Positions 15,249 to 28,933 of a stretch of DNA of 64,000 bases are shown here, one piece after another. The notes beneath the pieces are model-generated. The model had not been told where the DNA came from and did not search any database. It worked only from the letters and a program-made list of their open reading frames with translations. The stretch is from Ramlibacter sp. PS4R-6 (lineage in GTDB: Bacteria > Pseudomonadota > Gammaproteobacteria > Burkholderiales > Burkholderiaceae_C), in assembly GCF_037572775.1 (NCBI RefSeq), contig NZ_JBBHKA010000001.1:1488001-1552000 (forward strand), read 5' to 3'. The first letter of the stretch is position 1; the number at the start of each line of letters is the position of its first letter. The position numbers were made by a program, and so were the translations under genes.

Positions 15249-16859
15249 TCAGTGCGCCGCTCGAAGCAACCGGTTCAGCTCTTCCAACGCCACAGGCTTG
15301 ACCAGGTGTGCATCGAAGCCCGCCCTCGCTGTGCGCAAGCGATCTTCGGGGGAGCCATAGCCGGTGAGCGCAATCAGGCGCGCCGCCGAGCCGAAACGCC
15401 TGCGCCATTCGCGCGCGACTTCAAAGCCATCCATGTCCGGCAATCCGATGTCGAGCAGCACCACGTCGGGCAGCGCGCCCGATGACATGCAGTCCAAAGC
15501 TTCGGCCCCGTTGTGCGCCACCGCCACCTGCATGCCCTGAAGCCGCAGCGCTTCGGCCAGTGTCTGCGCCGCATCCTCGTTGTCGTCGACGATCAGCACA
15601 TGGCTCGGCGACAGACCGGCCGGTGCGACCGAGGTGGGACTTGTTTCGCGCTCGGCCGTGCGCGCGACGGGAAGGACCACCACGAACGTGCTGCCCATGC
15701 CGGGCCCGCCGCTTTCCGCCCGCACCGTTCCGCCATGGAGTTCGACGAGCGTGCGCACCAGCGTCAGGCCGATGCCGAGTCCACCGGGCGCGCGGTCGAG
15801 GGAGCCGGGGACCTGCTTGAACAGGTCGAAGATGCTGGTGAGCATCTCGCGCGGGATCCCGACCCCGGTATCCGACACGCGGACCTCGACATGCGCGCCG
15901 CGGTCGAAGGCCTCGAGGCGGATCGCGCCACCCGGTGGCGTGTACTTGGCGGCATTGTTGAGGAGGTTGGCGAACACCTGCGTCAGACGAACCTCGTCGG
16001 CGTCGACGCGCACGCCCCCGGGCACGGACCCGAACGTGAACGCATGGCGGCGGCTTTCGATGACGGGCCGGCTCGAGTCAACCGCGGCAGCGAGGACCCG
16101 ATGCAACGTCATCGGCTCACGGCGCAACTCGATCAGGCCCCGGCTCACCCGCGACACATCCAGGAGGTCGTCCACCAGGTGGGTCAATTGCTGGAGCTGG
16201 CGGCCGATGATTTCCATGCACCGCGCAGCGCGCGCTTCGCCTGCCGGCGCCAGCCGCCTGAGGACTTCCAGCGCACTCATGATCGGCGCCAGGGGGTTGC
16301 GCAACTCGTGGGCCAACATGGCGAGGAACTGGTCCTTGTGCTCGTGCTCCGCTTGCAGTTGCCGATTGGCTTCCGCGGCACCCGCGCGTGCCGCATCGAG
16401 GGCCCGCGCAAGTTCGCGCGCTTGCGTCGCCGCTTCGCGGGCTTCGGCTGCCGACGCGATTTCCAGGCGCAAGTCCTGCTGCGCGCGCAGCGCGCTCGCC
16501 AGCAGGGGGAAGGAATCGAGCAGGGCGGACGGAAACTCGCAGCGCCGGTTGCCCAGCAGCGCGAAGGCCGCCAGGCCGACGACCACGACAGTTGCATCCA
16601 GCACCTGGCCGCCGGCTTCGATCTTCGCGTGGACGCTATCGGAGCATCGGTCACGCAGGGCCGCCTGCCATTGGCTCGCGCAGGGCAGCGTCTGCGGCAT
16701 GCCCGGGGCAGGCAGGAAGACATCGAGCTCGGGATCCTTGACGAACAGCAGCAGCTCCATTGCGCCGGCGGCGTGCGCGAGTGCGCGCGCCGCCTCGCCG
16801 CGAGTGCCCGGTTCGGCAAGGGCGGCAATCAGCGATTGGAGCGGCGGCGCATCGATCAC
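15249..16859 (-). CDS. Hybrid histidine kinase with receiver domain, coupled to FIST protein
   Basis: Encodes 536 residues from GTG at 16859, which overlaps the FIST stop. Residues 1-125 look like a divergent GAF-type sensor; a charged coiled coil follows (130-175), then HisKA with His184 in AMLAHELRNPL, and HATPase with NLLNNAAKYTP, DTGVGIP and GGLGIGLTLV. Residues 410-535 are a receiver with VDDNED, phospho-acceptor Asp in VVLLDIGLPDMDG and Lys in HLVKP. There are no membrane helices, so it is cytoplasmic. It most likely takes its signal from the FIST protein made just before it. No DNA-binding output is attached. Confidence 0.88.
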   Translation of the reverse strand: MIDAPPLQSLIAALAEPGTRGEAARALAHAAGAMELLLFVKDPELDVFLPAPGMPQTLPCASQWQAALRDRCSDSVHAKIEAGGQVLDATVVVVGLAAFALLGNRRCEFPSALLDSFPLLASALRAQQDLRLEIASAAEAREAATQARELARALDAARAGAAEANRQLQAEHEHKDQFLAMLAHELRNPLAPIMSALEVLRRLAPAGEARAARCMEIIGRQLQQLTHLVDDLLDVSRVSRGLIELRREPMTLHRVLAAAVDSSRPVIESRRHAFTFGSVPGGVRVDADEVRLTQVFANLLNNAAKYTPPGGAIRLEAFDRGAHVEVRVSDTGVGIPREMLTSIFDLFKQVPGSLDRAPGGLGIGLTLVRTLVELHGGTVRAESGGPGMGSTFVVVLPVARTAERETSPTSVAPAGLSPSHVLIVDDNEDAAQTLAEALRLQGMQVAVAHNGAEALDCMSSGALPDVVLLDIGLPDMDGFEVAREWRRRFGSAARLIALTGYGSPEDRLRTARAGFDAHLVKPVALEELNRLLRAAH

Positions 16860-18022
16860 GAAGGCAGTACGCAGACCACCGCAGTGCAATTGTGAAAGCC
16901 GCTGAACTGGCCTTCGGCGCGGGCGATCTGGCCATAGGTGTTGCAACCCACGAATCCCGCCGGGGCAAGCAGGTTCGCGCACGCCTGCAATTCGTCCTCG
17001 AACTCGCGGCCCATGCGCAGGCGCGTGGCAACGCAGTCGAAGACAAGCGCGGCGGCCGGAGTCTCGCCGGCGAGCGCATCGATGGCAGCCTGCGTTGCGT
17101 GCCTCGCAGCCTGGACGGCCGAGGCGTTGCTGGTCTTCATGAAGTGCACGATGGTGCCTTCCGGAACATTTGCAGCGCACATGACAGAGCCATCCGCCGC
17201 AACGGCCAGGGGCACGCGCAGGCGGTGCGGGCCGTCCCCGCGGATGCCGATGACGTTGTGCAGGAAGAAAGGCAACGGGTCCTTGCGGTCGAACTTCTGG
17301 CCGCTCTGGCGCGCATGGGCCTCGAAGGCCTCCACGGCCGGTGCGCCATTGAGGCTGACGAGCTGCGCGCCACGGGCCTCGGTGACTCGCAGGCCTTCGC
17401 CCGCCGGCTCCCAGCCGTGCGCGACGCCGATGCCCACCGGCTTGCGGGAGAGGATCTCCAGCGCCGCGACCGCGTTCGTGTAGGCGCGCGTTCCCACGAA
17501 GACGTGGGTGGTCTGGAACCGTCCGTCGTCACCGGCGCCGCCGCCAAAGAAGCGGTAGTTGCCGCCGGTGCGCACGGTGAGCTGCTCGACCAGCGCATCC
17601 GCATGGCCGGCGAGCGCATCTGTCATCACCAGCGCGTTGCGGTAGGCGTACCCGGCGTCCTGGATGCCCGCAAACGCTTCCACCGTCTGCCGCGCAGCAT
17701 CGGCGGGATCGGTGCCCACGCCCTGCCCAAGGCCGACGGAGAATTTCATCTCCGGCGAGCGGATGGCAAGCGCGGACACCCGCCCTTCGCCGCGGTCCTT
17801 GTCCGTGAACTCGCCCGCCGACGAGGCCCCGGCGATCACGCGAGTGCCGGCATGCTCGGCGAGTGCCTCAAGCAGCTTGGGGTAGTCGTGCACTGCCGAA
17901 GCGAAGACCACGACAGCATGGGCCGGCGCGCCCGCGAATGCCCCGCGGATGGATCGGCCGAGCTCTGCGCCTGCGCGAGCGCTGTCGACCGTCTGGCTGA
18001 AGGCAATATGGGTCTGGGTCAT
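16856..18022 (-). CDS. FIST domain sensor protein
   Basis: Encodes 388 residues made of FIST_N and FIST_C domains, a cytoplasmic ligand-binding module thought to sense small molecules such as amino acids. Visible family features are the opening HIAFSQTVDSARAGAELGR, VIAGASSAGEFTD, GGGAGDDGRF, and the C-terminal FVGCNTYGQIARAEGQF, which resembles the conserved end of FIST_C. The ATG at 18022 follows GGGGGA and was chosen over one 20 codons earlier that adds an unlike tail. Its stop overlaps the GTG start of the hybrid kinase, a typical FIST-signalling pair. Confidence 0.85.
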   Translation of the reverse strand: MTQTHIAFSQTVDSARAGAELGRSIRGAFAGAPAHAVVVFASAVHDYPKLLEALAEHAGTRVIAGASSAGEFTDKDRGEGRVSALAIRSPEMKFSVGLGQGVGTDPADAARQTVEAFAGIQDAGYAYRNALVMTDALAGHADALVEQLTVRTGGNYRFFGGGAGDDGRFQTTHVFVGTRAYTNAVAALEILSRKPVGIGVAHGWEPAGEGLRVTEARGAQLVSLNGAPAVEAFEAHARQSGQKFDRKDPLPFFLHNVIGIRGDGPHRLRVPLAVAADGSVMCAANVPEGTIVHFMKTSNASAVQAARHATQAAIDALAGETPAAALVFDCVATRLRMGREFEDELQACANLLAPAGFVGCNTYGQIARAEGQFSGFHNCTAVVCVLPS

Positions 18023-18183
18023 GAGGGTCCCCCGAAAAGGAAACGAGTATGCGGCTGGGCATGATGACGTCGAGTCAGACAAAGCCGACTATTCCTCGCG
18101 AGGCCCGCCTACGGAATTTGGCGGTTCTGGCGGAGTCGGGACATCGTCCTACAGACAGCCGGGTCATCGTTGCGGATACATAA

Positions 18184-18198
18184 GTGTCCCCTGGACAC
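18184..18198. promoter_or_regulatory. Inverted repeat just before the MEDS gene
   Basis: GTGTCC-CCT-GGACAC is a perfect 6-base inverted repeat 6 bases before the ATG at 18205, in the divergent region between the FIST and MEDS genes. It could be an operator or an mRNA hairpin hiding the start. Role is inferred. Confidence 0.4.
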
Positions 18199-18204
18199 GC
18201 AGTC

Positions 18205-18861
18205 ATGCACAAACACCGAAAAATATCCCTCTGCGGCGAGTCGCTCGACGGGCTGCAGCACGTCTGCGCCTTCTTCGATTCCCGGGAAGAGCAGTACGAC
18301 GTGCTCAACCCTTACTTCCGCGAGGGCCTCGAGACAGGCGACGAGGTCGTGACCATCGTGGAATCCGCATACCACGACGAGCACATCCGGCGCATGTCCG
18401 GGGCGGGCATCCCCGTGGGTGCGGGAATGGAGTCGGGCCAGCTGAAGGTGCTTGCCTCCGAGGAGTCATACCTGAAAGACAATATCTTCGTGGTCGAGCG
18501 CATGTACGCGATGCTCGAGGAAGTGTTGCGCAACGCGGCCAGCGGGCCCTACAAATCCGTGCGCACGATGGGCGACATGGAATGGGCGCTCAAGAACCTG
18601 CCGGGCACCGACGAGCTCATAATGTACGAGGCGCGCGTGAACCTGCTCGCAGCGCACCACGACCGCACGTTGCTGTGCGCGTACGACGTGAACCGCTTCA
18701 GTGGGCGCGTCATCACCGACGTGCTGGCAACGCACTCCCATGTGATCATCAATGGGAAGGTGCACACGAACCCGTATTACGTCGACCCGGTGACCTACTT
18801 GAGCAAACTTGCGCTTCGCAAGCGCGCGGAGTCGCCGGCAAGGCCGTCCACCACGCATTGA
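18205..18861 (+). CDS. MEDS-domain (DcmR-like) sensory protein
   Basis: Encodes 218 residues that fit the MEDS family (methanogen/methylotroph DcmR sensory domain). Features are HVCAFFDSREEQYDVLNPYF at the start, GDEVVTIVESAYHDEHI, EVLRNAASGPYKSVRTMGDM and a final VHTNPYYVDPVTYL. MEDS domains are soluble and proposed to sense small organic compounds for linked regulators; here no output domain is attached, so it may act on the kinase encoded divergently. A GTG at 18184 could add seven codons, but it lies inside an inverted repeat, so the ATG was preferred. Confidence 0.8.
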   Translation: MHKHRKISLCGESLDGLQHVCAFFDSREEQYDVLNPYFREGLETGDEVVTIVESAYHDEHIRRMSGAGIPVGAGMESGQLKVLASEESYLKDNIFVVERMYAMLEEVLRNAASGPYKSVRTMGDMEWALKNLPGTDELIMYEARVNLLAAHHDRTLLCAYDVNRFSGRVITDVLATHSHVIINGKVHTNPYYVDPVTYLSKLALRKRAESPARPSTTH

Positions 18862-23107: not shown

Positions 23108-23494
23108 TCAGGTGTTCGCCGACGAAAGCCACTCGATGGCGTCGGGAAGATTTTCGAAGTTGCGGATGCGCAGCCCCTCCTGCTGCGCCTGGCGCTCGCC
23201 GAGGTGCGTGTTCTGTTCTTCCTTCAGGACCACCGCGATGCGGTCGACGGCGTGCAGGAGGCCGGCTGCCACGTGGCCCATCTCGACGCGGTCGGCATCC
23301 GTGCCGTCGAAGTCCACCGCCAGGAGGTCGAAGAGGAAGAGCGGGCGCATGGAGCGCCGCGAGACTTCGGCGCCGAAGGTGAGCGCCCCGCAGATCTCGA
23401 GCACCGTGGCGGGCCCCGAGCACGCTATCAGCACCATCGATGGGCCGTAGGAAACCGACACGGCGAACAGGCCCTTGGAGTTGCTTCGCGGCAC
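23108..23494 (-). CDS. STAS/SpoIIAA-like small protein
   Basis: Encodes 128 residues from GTG at 23494, which sits 5 bases after GGAGG; another GTG two codons upstream is too close to it. The sequence alternates beta strands and helices (LFAVSVSYGPSMVLIACSGP, RPLFLFDLLAVDFDG, HLLHAVDRIAVV-like segment), ending NLPDAIEWLSSANT. The layout matches SpoIIAA-like/STAS proteins with the usual C-terminal element DAIxWL. Role unknown. It lies just downstream of a frameshifted Bug gene that now reads into it. Confidence 0.65.
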   Translation of the reverse strand: MPRSNSKGLFAVSVSYGPSMVLIACSGPATVLEICGALTFGAEVSRRSMRPLFLFDLLAVDFDGTDADRVEMGHVAAGLLHAVDRIAVVLKEEQNTHLGERQAQQEGLRIRNFENLPDAIEWLSSANT

Positions 23495-23513
23495 AGTCAC
23501 CTCCAACTTGCTG

Positions 23514-24490
23514 CTATGAGAGGGGTTGGTACCCGACGGAGCGTAACACCCTGCCGGTGCGTTCATGGTCCCTGCGAAGGGCTTCGCGAAGCTCCGCGAT
23601 GCCCTGGCGCGGCGATGCGGCCTGCAGGCCGGCCGCCTTGAAAGCGGCCACCAGGTCGGATCCGACAGCGCAGCGAGCACGCGCGCCCGCAGGTCGGCGA
23701 CGATGCCTGCGGGATTCGAAGGCGTCGTGAACAGGGTGATGCCGACAGCTTGCGTGAGTTCGCCGTAGCCGAGTTCGGCAAGCGTCGGCACGCCCGGCAG
23801 CACCTCGGCGGGCGCTGCGCTCGTCACGGCCAGCGCCTTCAACGCCCCGCCGCGAATGTGCGGCAGCGAAGTGGCGATGCCATCGAACATGAAGGGCACG
23901 CGACCCGCGATCACGTCGAGGAGTGCCGGCGGCGAACCCCTGTAGCCGACGTGCAGCAGGTCGGCACCCGCAGCCTTGGCGAGCTGCAGGACCTTCACAT
24001 GCGAAGCGGTGCCGGCGCCGAACGACGCGATCGGCACGGGGGCCGGCTGGGCTTTCACGTAGCGGACCATGTCCGGGACGCTTTGCACGCCGACCGAGGC
24101 GCTTGCCACCAGCACGAGCCCTGTGGATGCGACTTGCGCCAGCGGCACGATGTCCGCGAAAGGGTCGTAGCGCGGCTTGACGGTATACGGCACTTCGGTG
24201 ACCAGCGAATCCGGCGACAGGAGGAAGACCGACCCGTCCGCCGGCGCAGCGAGGAGGGCATCCGTCGCGACGGTGCCCCCCACGCCGGGAAGGTTCTCGA
24301 TCACGGCCTGCAGGCCGGCCGTGCGCTGCAGGACGTCGGCGAGCTTTCGCGCAACGAAATCGGTCGTGCCGCCGGCGGGCGCGGGCACGATCAGGCGCAA
24401 CGGCCGCGCGGCCTTCGCGGCGGGCAGCACGCTGCTTGCGCACAACGCGGCGATGAACGCACGGCGCCGGATCGGTGGGTGAATCAGCAT
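23514..24490 (-). pseudogene. Frameshifted Bug-family (TctC) binding protein
   Basis: The first 280 or so residues are a standard tripartite-tricarboxylate receptor: export signal RRRAFIAALCASSVLPAAKA, LIVPAPAGGTTDFVARKLA, IENLPGVGGTVATDAL, GYRGSPPALLDVIAG. At about 23652-23655 the frame breaks: LAALSDPT should continue as VAAFKAAGLQAASPRQGIAE and end at the TAG at 23514-23516, but one base seems missing. In the present sequence the frame instead runs on into the next gene. This may be a true pseudogene or a sequencing error in a GC-rich tract. Confidence 0.8.
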
Positions 24491-24570: not shown

Positions 24571-27500
24571 TCAGGCGAGGATGAGGTCCGAAGCCACCAG
24601 CGTGGCCACCCCCGTCAGCTCCACGACGAACTCCGCGGCGCCGTCGGCATTGGTGCTGCCATAGAGCTTGTGCGTCGCGCTGTCGAAGCGCAGCTGCCCG
24701 GTCGCGTTCGCGCTGAATTCGGCGCTGCCGATGAACGTGAAGGACTGGAGGCCCTTCTTCGCGCTGTTCGCATCCATCTTGGCGAGGTCGATGTGGTCGC
24801 CCTCGGCCGGCCGGAAGTCCGTGATCACGTCGGTGTGCAGCCCGTCGCTGTCGGCCGCCGAGAGGTAGACGAAGCGGTCGCCGCCGGCGCCGCCGGTCAG
24901 CACGTCCGCGCCGGCTGCGCCATTGATCACGTTGGCCTGCGCATTGCCCGTGATCGCGTTGTCCAGCGCGTTGCCCGTGGCGCTCTTGGCCGTGCTCCCG
25001 GTGAGGGTCAGGTTCTCCACACCGGCGACCAGCACCATGTTCACCGACGACAGGATCGAGTCGATGCCTCCATTGGCGGCTTCGATGACCACGTCCTTCG
25101 AGATGTCGACGATGAAGGTGTCGTCGCCTGCGCCGCCGTCCATCGTGTCCGCGCCCGTGCCGCCGTCGAGCGTGTCCGCGCCCGCTCCGCCGGCCAGCGA
25201 GTCCGTGCCGGCCCCGCCTGCCAGCGAGTCGGCGCCGACGCCCCCCACGAGCGTGTCGGCGCCCGACGTGCCGCCCAGTGCCTGGCCGCCCGCCGTGATG
25301 AAGTTGAAGTCGCTCGAGCCCGCGTAAGCATTGCCGGCGGCGTCCTTGAACGTGCCCGCCGCGAACGTCAGCCGGTACTCGGTGCCAGCGGCCAGGTCGG
25401 CGGTGGGATCGATCGTCACTTCGCCGCCGGCGATCGACACGCGCGTGCTGGCCGCCGTGTCGAAGGTTTCCACCACCGTGCCGTCGGCCTTCTGCAGCAC
25501 GACATTGCCGCTTCCGCGCAGTACGTCTTCGCTGAAGGTCACGACCACGTTCGCGCCGATGGGGACGCCGACGGTTTCGTCGGAAGGGCTGAACGAGGTG
25601 ACAACCGGCGGCGTGCTGTCCGCGACGAGGACCGCCACGGGCGCCGTCGCGGCCGAAGCCACCTGCTCGTAGCTGCCGGCCTGGTCGAAGTAGCTCGCGA
25701 TCACCGTGATGGTCTTGCCCACCTCGCTCTCGCCCAGCAGGAGCGTCGCGCCGGTTGCGCCGGCGATGTCGGTGCTGTCGGCCTGCCACTGGTAGCCCAC
25801 GGTGCCCATGCCGTCGGCGTCGGCAAGCGAGTCGGAGGCGGTGAGCACCTCGCCCTGCCTTGGCGTGCCCGAGATCATCACTTCGCCGGTGGGCGCATCG
25901 TTGGCGGGGATGAGCCGCATCGTCGTGTCGCCGACGGCCTGCAACGCGCCGCCCGTTCCCTGCGCGCCCGTGTTGCCGTCGTCGAAGGTCCAGGCCACCT
26001 GCACCTGGCCGGACGGCGTGTCGGAATTGCTCGAATAGGTGATGCTCGAAAGCGCTTCGTTGACGCGAGACTGTGTCGCGTTGCCGTTGAAGGCGATCGC
26101 GAGCGAGCCGCCTGCGTTGGTGTAGGTGCCGATCGTGATGCCGCCCAGCACCGCGTCGCCCGCCGCCAGCGTCAGGTTGCCGCCGCCCGCGAAGGTGTCC
26201 TCGCCCGACGCGCCGCCCATGCGCTGCACCGTGATGCTGGAGCCCGCGTAGTTGCCCACGCCGCCGTCGAGCGCGGCGAGGTTCGCGTCGAAGACCGCGA
26301 CAGAGCTGTCGAGGAAGACCGGCGCCGCGTTCTCGATGAAAGTCGAGCCTGCGGAGAGCGTGTCGACCGGCGCGCCGTGGAAGCTCGTGTCGAGGCTGCC
26401 GTCGGCGTTGTACCGCGCCACGAGCACGTCGGCCTCGATGCCTTCCGTGGTGGAGGCGGCAACGACGATCTTGCCGTCCGCCTGCACCGACACGCTGCCG
26501 CCCATCTCGGTGTTGCCGTGCAAGTCGGTGAGGACGTAGCCGGTGCCGTTGAAGGTGGTGTCCACGCTGCCGTTCGCGTTGTAGCGCATGGTCACCACGT
26601 CGGAATGGGCCTCATCGGCATACCCGGTCACCACGAACTTGCCGTCGGCCTGCAGCGCGATGCCCTGGACCGATACGTTGGCGGTGGGCACGAGGTTTGT
26701 CAGGACCTTGCCTGTGCCGTTGAAGGCGGTGTCGAGGGTGCCGTCGGTGTTGTAGCGCGCGATGGCGAACGAACCGCCCGAACCGCCTGCGACGAGTATC
26801 TTGCCGTCGGACTGCATCGCGATGCCTGTGGCCGAGTCGGGTGTGCCGAACTGGCCCCCGGAGCCGAAGTCGGTGGTGGCAATCCCGTCGCCGCTGAAGC
26901 TCGTGTCGAGGGAGCCGTTCGAATTCAGGCGCATCACCTGGAAGTCGCTGTTGTCGTTGGAGCCCGCGACGACGATCTTCCCGTCGGCTTGCAACGCGAT
27001 GTCGCGGATCACGCTGAACCTGTTGCCCAGGCCGATGAGCTCGGAGCCGGTCCCGTTGAAAGTCGTGTCGAGGCTGCCGTTGCTGTTCAGGCGCGCAATC
27101 GCGAACGTCTGGTAGCCGTTGACCGGGTGCCAGTTGGCCATGCCCGCGACCAGGATCCTGCCGTCGGCCTGCACCGCGACAGCCTGGCCGCTCTCGCTGG
27201 CGGGGCCGACCTGGACGCTGGCAACGCCGGTTCCGTTGAACGACGTGTCCAGGCTGCCGTCCGTGTTGTAGCGGATGACGCCGAAGCCGCCCGAGTTTTG
27301 CGTGCCCCCGACCACCATCTTGCCGTCGGCCTGCAACACCATGTCGGCCGCCGCAAAACCGCTGACGCTGGTGGAGCTGCCCGTGCCGTTGAAAGTCGTG
27401 TCCAGGGTACCGTCGGCGTTCAGGCGCAGCACGGTGGCCGTCCTGTAGTCGATGTTGGCCGCGAGGAGAATCTTTCCATCCGGCAGCGTGATCGTTGTGC

Positions 27501-28728
27501 GCGCGTAGTCGTTTGTCCCATCGCCCAGGGCCATCACGGCCATGCCGGGTATGACCGCCGCGAACGTCGGTGCGACGTTGCCCGGGTCGACCGGAGCCGG
27601 CACACCGAAGCGCGTGCTGTAGATGTCCAGGCCGCTCGCCGGGTCGACGTAGCCTTCCCATGACACGGCGTAGCCGCCGCCTTCGAGAGCGGTGATGGCG
27701 GGGCGCGTCTGCCCGTCGGTGAAGTCGGCGGGGCTGATGCGCGTTTCGCCGCCGACGCGGCTGCCGTCCGCCGCGAACTGCTGCGCCTCGATGACCGGTG
27801 CGCCGTTCGCGAACGAATGCCATGCAACCACCCATCCGCCTTCATCGAGGCCGGTGATGGTCGGTGCCGTCTGCTCTTCGGCGATCACCGTGTTCACGAG
27901 CGTCTCGCCGCCGACGGGGCTGCCGTCGCCCGCGTAGCGCTGCGAGTAGATGCCGCCCAGGTCGCCTTCCTGCGAGTACGAGGTCCATGCGACCACATAG
28001 CCGCCGTCCGCCAGTGCGGCCACTTCCGGCGACATCTGGTTGTCGGCGATCGTCGTGTTCACACGCGTCTCGGCGCCGGCGAAAGTGCCGTCGGCGTTGA
28101 AGCGCTGCGCGGACACGCCCCATGTGAACCCCACGTCCGGCGAAATCCAGGTGACGACCCAGCCGCCGCCGGCGAGGCCGGCCACCATGGGATCGCCCTG
28201 GTTGCCCGCGGTGGTGGTATTGGCGCGCACTTCGCCGCCCACGCGCGAACCGTCGGCCGCATGGCGCTGCGTGTAGATGCCGTAGTCGTCGCCATCGCCC
28301 GAGACCCAGGCGGCCAGGTAGCCGCCGTCCGCCAGGCCGCCGGCGTCGGCAACGCTTTGCGTGCCCACTGTCTGCGTGTTGACCAGGGTCTCGCCGCCGA
28401 TCGGCGTGCCGTCGGCCGCGAATCTCTGGCTGAGCACCCCCTCCGAGCTGCCGTCCGCCTCGTTCGAAGTCCAGACGACGACGAAGCCGCCGGCTTGCGC
28501 CGTGATGGCGGGCATCATCTGCATGTTGGCCGTCGTGGTGTTCACGCGGGTCTCGGCCCCGGCGGCGTTGCCGTCGGCGCCGTAGCGTTGGAAGTAGATG
28601 TCGCCGAAGTCGCTTCCGGGCTGGAAGGAGTGCCAGGCGACGACATAGCCGCCATCGGGCAGGGCGGCGATGTCGGACCAGCTCTGTTCGTCGGCGGTCG
28701 ACGTGTTGACGCGGGAAACGGTGCTCAT
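24571..28728 (-). CDS. Giant RTX/delta-60 repeat protein, probable type I secretion substrate
   Basis: Encodes about 1385 residues from ATG 28728; a start 49 codons earlier is possible and neither has a clear ribosome-binding site. Residues 1-375 hold about eight repeats of about 45 residues around GGYVVAWxS and VNTxxAxxQ. Then come delta-60 repeats (SLDTTFNGTG...ADGKIVVAG), an Ig-like domain (PVVTSFSPSDETVGVPIGAN), and calcium-binding RTX nonapeptides such as GGAGADTLDGGTGADTMDGG. The C terminus (GQLRFDSATHKLYGSTN, then VATLVASDLILA) resembles the M10 serralysin-type secretion signal. No N-terminal signal peptide, as expected for type I export. Likely cell-surface or released adhesin. Confidence 0.8.
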   Translation of the reverse strand: MSTVSRVNTSTADEQSWSDIAALPDGGYVVAWHSFQPGSDFGDIYFQRYGADGNAAGAETRVNTTTANMQMMPAITAQAGGFVVVWTSNEADGSSEGVLSQRFAADGTPIGGETLVNTQTVGTQSVADAGGLADGGYLAAWVSGDGDDYGIYTQRHAADGSRVGGEVRANTTTAGNQGDPMVAGLAGGGWVVTWISPDVGFTWGVSAQRFNADGTFAGAETRVNTTIADNQMSPEVAALADGGYVVAWTSYSQEGDLGGIYSQRYAGDGSPVGGETLVNTVIAEEQTAPTITGLDEGGWVVAWHSFANGAPVIEAQQFAADGSRVGGETRISPADFTDGQTRPAITALEGGGYAVSWEGYVDPASGLDIYSTRFGVPAPVDPGNVAPTFAAVIPGMAVMALGDGTNDYARTTITLPDGKILLAANIDYRTATVLRLNADGTLDTTFNGTGSSTSVSGFAAADMVLQADGKMVVGGTQNSGGFGVIRYNTDGSLDTSFNGTGVASVQVGPASESGQAVAVQADGRILVAGMANWHPVNGYQTFAIARLNSNGSLDTTFNGTGSELIGLGNRFSVIRDIALQADGKIVVAGSNDNSDFQVMRLNSNGSLDTSFSGDGIATTDFGSGGQFGTPDSATGIAMQSDGKILVAGGSGGSFAIARYNTDGTLDTAFNGTGKVLTNLVPTANVSVQGIALQADGKFVVTGYADEAHSDVVTMRYNANGSVDTTFNGTGYVLTDLHGNTEMGGSVSVQADGKIVVAASTTEGIEADVLVARYNADGSLDTSFHGAPVDTLSAGSTFIENAAPVFLDSSVAVFDANLAALDGGVGNYAGSSITVQRMGGASGEDTFAGGGNLTLAAGDAVLGGITIGTYTNAGGSLAIAFNGNATQSRVNEALSSITYSSNSDTPSGQVQVAWTFDDGNTGAQGTGGALQAVGDTTMRLIPANDAPTGEVMISGTPRQGEVLTASDSLADADGMGTVGYQWQADSTDIAGATGATLLLGESEVGKTITVIASYFDQAGSYEQVASAATAPVAVLVADSTPPVVTSFSPSDETVGVPIGANVVVTFSEDVLRGSGNVVLQKADGTVVETFDTAASTRVSIAGGEVTIDPTADLAAGTEYRLTFAAGTFKDAAGNAYAGSSDFNFITAGGQALGGTSGADTLVGGVGADSLAGGAGTDSLAGGAGADTLDGGTGADTMDGGAGDDTFIVDISKDVVIEAANGGIDSILSSVNMVLVAGVENLTLTGSTAKSATGNALDNAITGNAQANVINGAAGADVLTGGAGGDRFVYLSAADSDGLHTDVITDFRPAEGDHIDLAKMDANSAKKGLQSFTFIGSAEFSANATGQLRFDSATHKLYGSTNADGAAEFVVELTGVATLVASDLILA

Positions 28729-28933
28729 GGGGGGATCCAGGGAAGGGGATCGGGCAGCGGGGGAGCCGCCGCGCGCGCTGGCGGGGGAGATGCGGCTGCG
28801 CGCGGAACTGCGTCGCAGGGACTGGAACTGTATGGATGGCGCGGCGCAGGAACTCCTGTCGCGATTCGCCTGCATCCAACGATGCAGCGACCTTGTGACT
28901 TAGAGCCCTAGCGCCGAGTTCGGAGACCGCCCG

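Follow-up and report, generated by a model that had tools for sequence, protein, structure and literature searches.

A FIST–hybrid kinase operon and a divergent stand-alone MEDS gene in Ramlibacter: probably separate sensing genes that share an intergenic region

In a 64,000-nucleotide stretch of the Ramlibacter sp. PS4R-6 genome (RefSeq assembly GCF_037572775.1, contig NZ_JBBHKA010000001.1, positions 1,488,001 to 1,552,000 of the forward strand; hereafter the window), three signalling genes were located, encoding a FIST-family protein and a hybrid histidine kinase on the minus strand and a MEDS-family protein on the plus strand (Table 1). The host assembly, labelled G000, comprises 3.84 Mb in 5 contigs; other labels beginning with G, C and L likewise denote genomes, contigs and loci. 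We suggest, with a probability of about 0.68, that the locus holds two separate cytoplasmic sensing genes which share an intergenic region and are co-regulated, namely a FIST-kinase operon and a solo MEDS gene. A preliminary description of this DNA was right about the anatomy: FIST is coupled to the kinase-receiver gene through a GTGA overlap (16859-16856), the pair diverges from MEDS across a gap of 182 base pairs, and a domain search of the MEDS protein returns MEDS only, with no output domain. Its further proposal, that MEDS and FIST proteins together feed one kinase, is supported for FIST but not for MEDS.

The coupling of FIST to its kinase is seen throughout the relatives. A search of 60 Ramlibacter genomes, with identities taken over the part of the protein present, gave FIST matches in 16, of which 13 (window included) show at least 65% identity and three 25-29%; one more orthologue was found outside the genus (G156). 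Among the 13 orthologous loci besides the window, identity is 65-74% in the 11 aligned, and the closest named relative is Ramlibacter albus at 74%, the single locus returned by a search for FIST relatives among named organisms. A kinase gene lies directly downstream of FIST in 12/12 testable loci, the arrangement expected of a NosP-type gene; G500, where the contig stops inside FIST, was left out of this count. Genes in the relatives were called with a codon-usage script, by which some were missed or shortened (FIST in L106, the kinase start in L105).

The kinase itself has the Pfam domains of a hybrid histidine kinase (HisKA, HATPase_c and Response_reg), and because H184 in the HELRN motif, recognisable N, D and G boxes, D470 and the receiver lysine are all in place, it should, judging from these residues, be active. 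Against the NahK/ErcS model NF041832 it scores 148.1 bits, the cut-off being 400, and so falls outside that family. Nor does it appear to be input-less: residues 1-170, aligned over 12 orthologues, gave a predicted fold with a mean predicted local distance difference test (pLDDT) score of 90.7, and the best matches in the PDB are GAF domains, albeit modest ones (best E-value 0.0035, template modelling score 0.44; none at or below 0.001), pointing to a GAF-like fold for the first ~130 residues. Among the 739 predicted proteins of the loci examined, a model of this N-terminal domain has 13 matches (R. albus being counted twice, as L051 and L103), all of them kinases behind FIST genes, and the next match reaches only an E-value of 0.11; FIST and this input domain therefore travel together. 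Since the operon is strictly conserved and the input domain is found only behind FIST, the conclusion that FIST feeds the hybrid kinase is well supported, and the description of the pair as an ordinary detached-sensor kinase unit is sound. The FIST protein would bind the GAF-like domain and set the balance between kinase and phosphatase activity, and phosphate would pass from H184 to D470 and on to an unlinked partner.

The FIST protein consists of the Pfam domains FIST (122.6 bits) and FIST_C (78.8 bits) and lacks an output domain, in keeping with NosP, whose NCBIfam equivalog model is its sole match in that collection. Its score of 98.9 bits, however, stays below the model's cut-off (450) and leaves the protein outside NosP as the model defines it. 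Window-type FIST proteins form a clade scoring 99-113 bits on this model, with 65-74% identity internally and ~25% to other FIST proteins of the bacterial family; among seven of the latter of similar type, six score 55-73 bits and the seventh 100. Two residues, C330 and H377, are invariant in 18/18 aligned proteins; neither is assigned as a heme ligand. A comparison of the protein with solved structures gave no match. FIST as such is common, being above cut-off in 163/200 genomes of the bacterial family, and the host genome has a second FIST gene (C1:998658; L048:8545-9804), of a type apparently widespread in the family and without a match to the NosP model.

Published work describes NosP-type FIST proteins as binding heme and nitric oxide (NO) and interacting with the kinase NosK, whose autophosphorylation is inhibited by the FIST protein, more strongly with NO (PMC12570481). 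In other FIST/NosP cases the direction of kinase control is described as varying among species (PMC8846402, PMC8738867), and a review still words the FIST ligand as 'may bind' (PMC8846402). The earlier statement that the ligands of these families are not well settled is fair for the window's FIST clade, but less so for the FIST family as a whole. By analogy of architecture the window's pair may work like NosP and its kinase, in spite of falling below the model cut-off, and the signal sensed by FIST would be small, probably of the heme/NO type.

The MEDS protein scores 155 bits on the Pfam MEDS model (cut-off 29.8) and carries no second domain. Its best NCBIfam match is the RsbA anti-sigma family, at 71.3 bits against a cut-off of 210, so that it is not placed in RsbA. 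The predicted fold is KaiC/FlaH-like (structure comparison, E-value 2e-6) and the sequence has no Walker A motif, which agrees with the label of inactivated KaiC given to MEDS in a table of PMC5847659; among solved structures a single weak match (E-value 0.0018, chain b-iTHR-110) was not used. A paralogue, 83% identical, lies 28 kilobases (kb) away at C1:1477636 (L049:8571-9239; G000:C1:1477570 on), next to what we take to be a branched-chain-amino-acid-type transporter gene and an acyl-CoA ligase-like gene. The window's MEDS is thus a recently duplicated solo gene, most likely outside the FIST-kinase unit. With 7/200 genomes of the bacterial family above cut-off, MEDS is rare there; it is commoner within Ramlibacter (21/60 genomes).

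The linkage of MEDS to the operon is largely not kept in relatives. Of the ten orthologous loci whose flanking DNA extends to either side, one, that of R. albus (G472), has a MEDS gene at most 5 kb from the FIST-kinase operon, and the operon is present without any MEDS match in G483, G488 and G509. Moreover, the MEDS linked to the operon in R. albus falls on another branch of the MEDS tree than the window's and is not orthologous to it. The R. albus cluster occupies L103:6455-10910, with further hybrid kinases on its flanks. In the 39 genomes with both families, 0.16 FIST-MEDS pairs within 5 kb would be expected and two are seen, one of them that of the window (P 0.012). Once the window is excluded, one such pair is left among the 10 genomes that carry both the operon and MEDS (P 0.022). 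Expected counts were computed with contigs treated as whole genomes. The next closest pair is 16 kb apart (G334). In the literature collection searched, no paper mentions the FIST domain alongside MEDS, and none combines the three terms FIST, MEDS and histidine kinase as whole words. MEDS probably came to lie beside the operon within this lineage, in which case the adjacency is no evidence of a shared kinase. The genes are thus largely unlinked in relatives, an outcome that the preliminary description had named as counting against its joint unit, but not wholly so, R. albus being linked and co-occurrence within the genus, uncorrected for phylogeny, being above chance.

Kinases and regulators adjoining MEDS at eight loci in other genomes have a common N-terminal domain of their own, with the consensus start LRDLMGLLALPALWAG; its carriers are hybrid kinases, a PAS kinase and three sigma-54 activators. 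In a survey of 80 genomes (41 with MEDS above cut-off and 39 without; the MEDS-positive G588, G603, G653, G889, G534 and G563 were left out) the domain occurs eight times, every time adjacent to a MEDS gene, with none in the 39 genomes lacking MEDS and none in the window's genome. The model had been seeded from MEDS-adjacent genes and returned exactly its eight seeds; the survey therefore shows that it met no copy away from MEDS, and does not show that distant members of the domain family are within its reach. The exclusive adjacency of the LRDLMGLLALPALWAG domain to MEDS favours a MEDS protein acting in trans through this putative docking domain. The window kinase bears the FIST-type input domain instead, and the two domain profiles do not match each other (hhalign probability 0.4%). 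A tentative extension of these observations is a kit of detached sensors, in which MEDS would act on LRDLMGLLALPALWAG-domain proteins and FIST on GAF-like ones, the window's MEDS perhaps having been re-plugged into the operon. That a MEDS copy which settled beside the FIST operon was indeed re-plugged into it is, taken by itself, improbable.

A promoter-type element may offer another link between the two families. A promoter scan of the 182 base pairs gave no match to a sigma-70-type consensus, and the single terminator-like stem is unremarkable. An element, GTCCTACAGAC, ends 48 bases upstream of the MEDS start codon, and the same 11 bases stand at a similar position upstream of the MEDS paralogue, the remaining upstream DNA being unlike. 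Four sites in the genome match the element exactly and 23 more differ from it at one base; 24/27 lie outside genes (script gene calls; P 3e-17 assuming 15% non-coding DNA) and mostly 35-85 bases upstream of a gene on the same strand. It is this placement that stands out, as the number of sites is not raised (27 against 61 for a reversed-pattern control). In the 772 kb of loci examined, GTCCTACAG is intergenic in 10/13 cases, against 2/37 for each of two control strings; five more control strings, with fewer matches, gave 0/15, 0/0, 2/17, 3/9 and 2/2. In a small sample, GTCCTACA sites are intergenic in 0/1 and 0/1 cases in two other genera and in 2/3 in another Ramlibacter. Among the genes that follow the element are those for a catalase, a BON-domain protein, a sodium/proton exchanger-family protein, an aldo/keto reductase and both MEDS copies.

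Upstream of FIST, a TCCTAC-type stretch with at most two mismatches to GTCCTACAG stands 56-69 bases before the start in 12/12 of the other orthologues whose loci include upstream DNA (G513, which has none, was not counted). At that distance the FIST gene of the window lacks a GTCCTACAG-type stretch. Among the 35 MEDS genes examined, an exact 11-base copy lies upstream of four, from three genomes, and 31 are without one. A literature search found no description of the GTCCTACAG element among the matches listed, string matches being judged by title. From pattern and placement, the GTCCTACAGAC-type element looks like a promoter element of a Ramlibacter stress regulon, and the FIST and MEDS sensors look like members of one stress-type regulon of the genus. 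Under its own stress-type promoter element, the window's MEDS would probably act on another protein or serve as a stand-alone sensor.

Several observations weigh against the preferred reading. In R. albus the order is MEDS, a GAF-PAS protein, FIST and kinase, all on the same strand. MEDS occurs in 10/13 operon-bearing genomes and in 11/47 other Ramlibacter genomes (Fisher 0.0007, phylogeny uncorrected); the test pools several MEDS subfamilies and ignores relatedness, and gives 0.017 among the 45 better genomes and 0.0015 minus the window's genome. Within Ramlibacter, the GTCCTACAG-type element is shared by the two families. The search of the window's genome found no partner protein of the kind seen beside MEDS elsewhere, so its MEDS proteins could use the FIST-linked kinase; in a tree of 27 MEDS proteins, the window's pair is not inside the partner-bearing group, and a loss of the partner is therefore not established. 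Finally, since the NosP cut-off is missed, the NO part of the reading holds by analogy only. A common regulon is a likelier ground for the co-occurrence of MEDS and operon than a shared kinase, and would be a link of its own kind.

Could MEDS and FIST nevertheless both feed one hybrid kinase, which would integrate two signals? We consider such a joint unit possible, but unlikely and not the best reading. It would accommodate the adjacency in two species with different MEDS subfamilies, the excess of close pairs over expectation with and without the window, the co-occurrence within the genus and the absence of the usual partner type from the window's genome, and it is consistent with MEDS genes often standing beside kinase or receiver genes (12/28 against 47/304 background genes). 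It is at odds with the FIST-type input domain of the window kinase, with the retention of the operon without MEDS in three relatives, with the two operon-linked MEDS genes not being orthologous, and with the MEDS gene having a promoter element of its own that is also found at the unlinked paralogue. A transcriptional link, in which MEDS would be a stress-response regulator controlling a GTCCTACAG regulon with the FIST-kinase operon as a member, seems to us slightly less probable still: MEDS finds its best NCBIfam match in an anti-sigma family (71 bits, below the cut-off of 210), the genes behind the element and the TCCTAC-type stretches upstream of FIST orthologues would fit, and PMC11507031 reports a proposal of MEDS proteins as SigB-linked stress regulators in actinobacteria, but the window's FIST gene lacks the element at the distance seen in its orthologues, and most MEDS genes examined lack an exact copy.

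A further alternative is compatible with the anatomy of two separate genes and concerns the ligand only. FIST may have a NosP-like architecture with different chemistry and detect something other than gas or heme, a possibility that we rate as appreciable, if clearly the less likely one. The low NosP score and the separate clade, with ~25% identity to other FIST proteins of the bacterial family, argue for it; the NosP model is still the protein's only family match, the clade outscores 6/7 of the similar-type FIST proteins tested, and C330 and H377 are invariant, all of which speak against it. We retain the reading of a FIST-kinase operon and a separate, co-regulated MEDS gene.

Although FIST and MEDS are widespread among sensory proteins, little biochemistry exists for either family. 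The input domain of the kinase narrows the search for a FIST docking site to a defined region, and the MEDS-linked domain is a candidate route by which an output-less MEDS protein could pass on its signal. The shared element, which puts FIST and MEDS in an apparent stress regulon, narrows the range of conditions of interest.

Table 1. Features of the locus, with element and domain sites in other loci
Feature	Position	Strand	Basis
Soluble hybrid histidine kinase, 536 amino acids, GTG start	15249..16859	-	domain search and sequence check
Receiver domain, residues 421-531, D470	15267..15599	-	domain search, sequence check
HATPase_c, residues 288-399	15663..15998	-	domain search
HisKA, residues 175-239, H184 in HELRN	16143..16337	-	domain search, sequence check
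Kinase N-terminal GAF-like input domain (predicted) and coiled coil, residues 1-170	16350..16859	-	alignment, profile, predicted structure
GTGA, FIST stop overlapping kinase start	16856..16859	-	sequence check
FIST/FIST_C protein, NosP-like, 388 amino acids, ATG start	16856..18022	-	domain and NCBIfam model scores
FIST C domain, residues 246-368	16919..17287	-	domain search
FIST N domain, residues 36-226	17345..17917	-	domain search
Divergent FIST/MEDS intergenic region, 182 base pairs	18023..18204	.	promoter scan, sequence check
GTCCTACAGAC promoter-type element directed at MEDS	18146..18156	+	pattern search
Stand-alone MEDS protein, 218 amino acids, without output domain	18205..18861	+	domain search, predicted fold
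GTCCTACAGAC-type element sites	window 18146-18156 (+); L183-L209; L112, L142, L144		
LRDLMGLLALPALWAG-domain loci	L116, L117, L118, L119, L120, L121, L133, L148		no Pfam identification among the scanned proteins

Elsewhere in the window, a long open frame of 1434 amino acids at 24571-28875 on the minus strand has GGxGxDxL-type repeats in its C-terminal part, which we take to be typical of secreted calcium-binding proteins. A solute-receptor-like frame lies at 23108-24490 on the same strand, and its last third looks unrelated, as if a frame change had joined two genes.

Among known systems, the window's operon most resembles NosP-NahK/NosK, in which a FIST-FIST_C protein is likewise in an operon with a soluble kinase. 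NosK also shares the H-E-x-x-N motif of the window kinase and, according to PMC12570481, is likewise without a recognised sensory domain. Unlike in those systems, the scores are low (98.9 of 450 bits for NosP and 148 of 400 for NahK/ErcS), the kinase is fused to a receiver while the operon encodes no response regulator as a gene of its own, and the kinase's N-terminal GAF-like domain is of a family of its own. The MEDS protein agrees with other MEDS (DcmR sensory) proteins in its domain (155 bits), KaiC/FlaH-like predicted fold and missing Walker A motif, but differs from them in having no fused DNA-binding or kinase output. The pairing of a detached gas sensor with a cytoplasmic kinase has its parallel in H-NOX proteins and their adjacent histidine kinases, as described in PMC8738867, the sensor family in the window being FIST instead.

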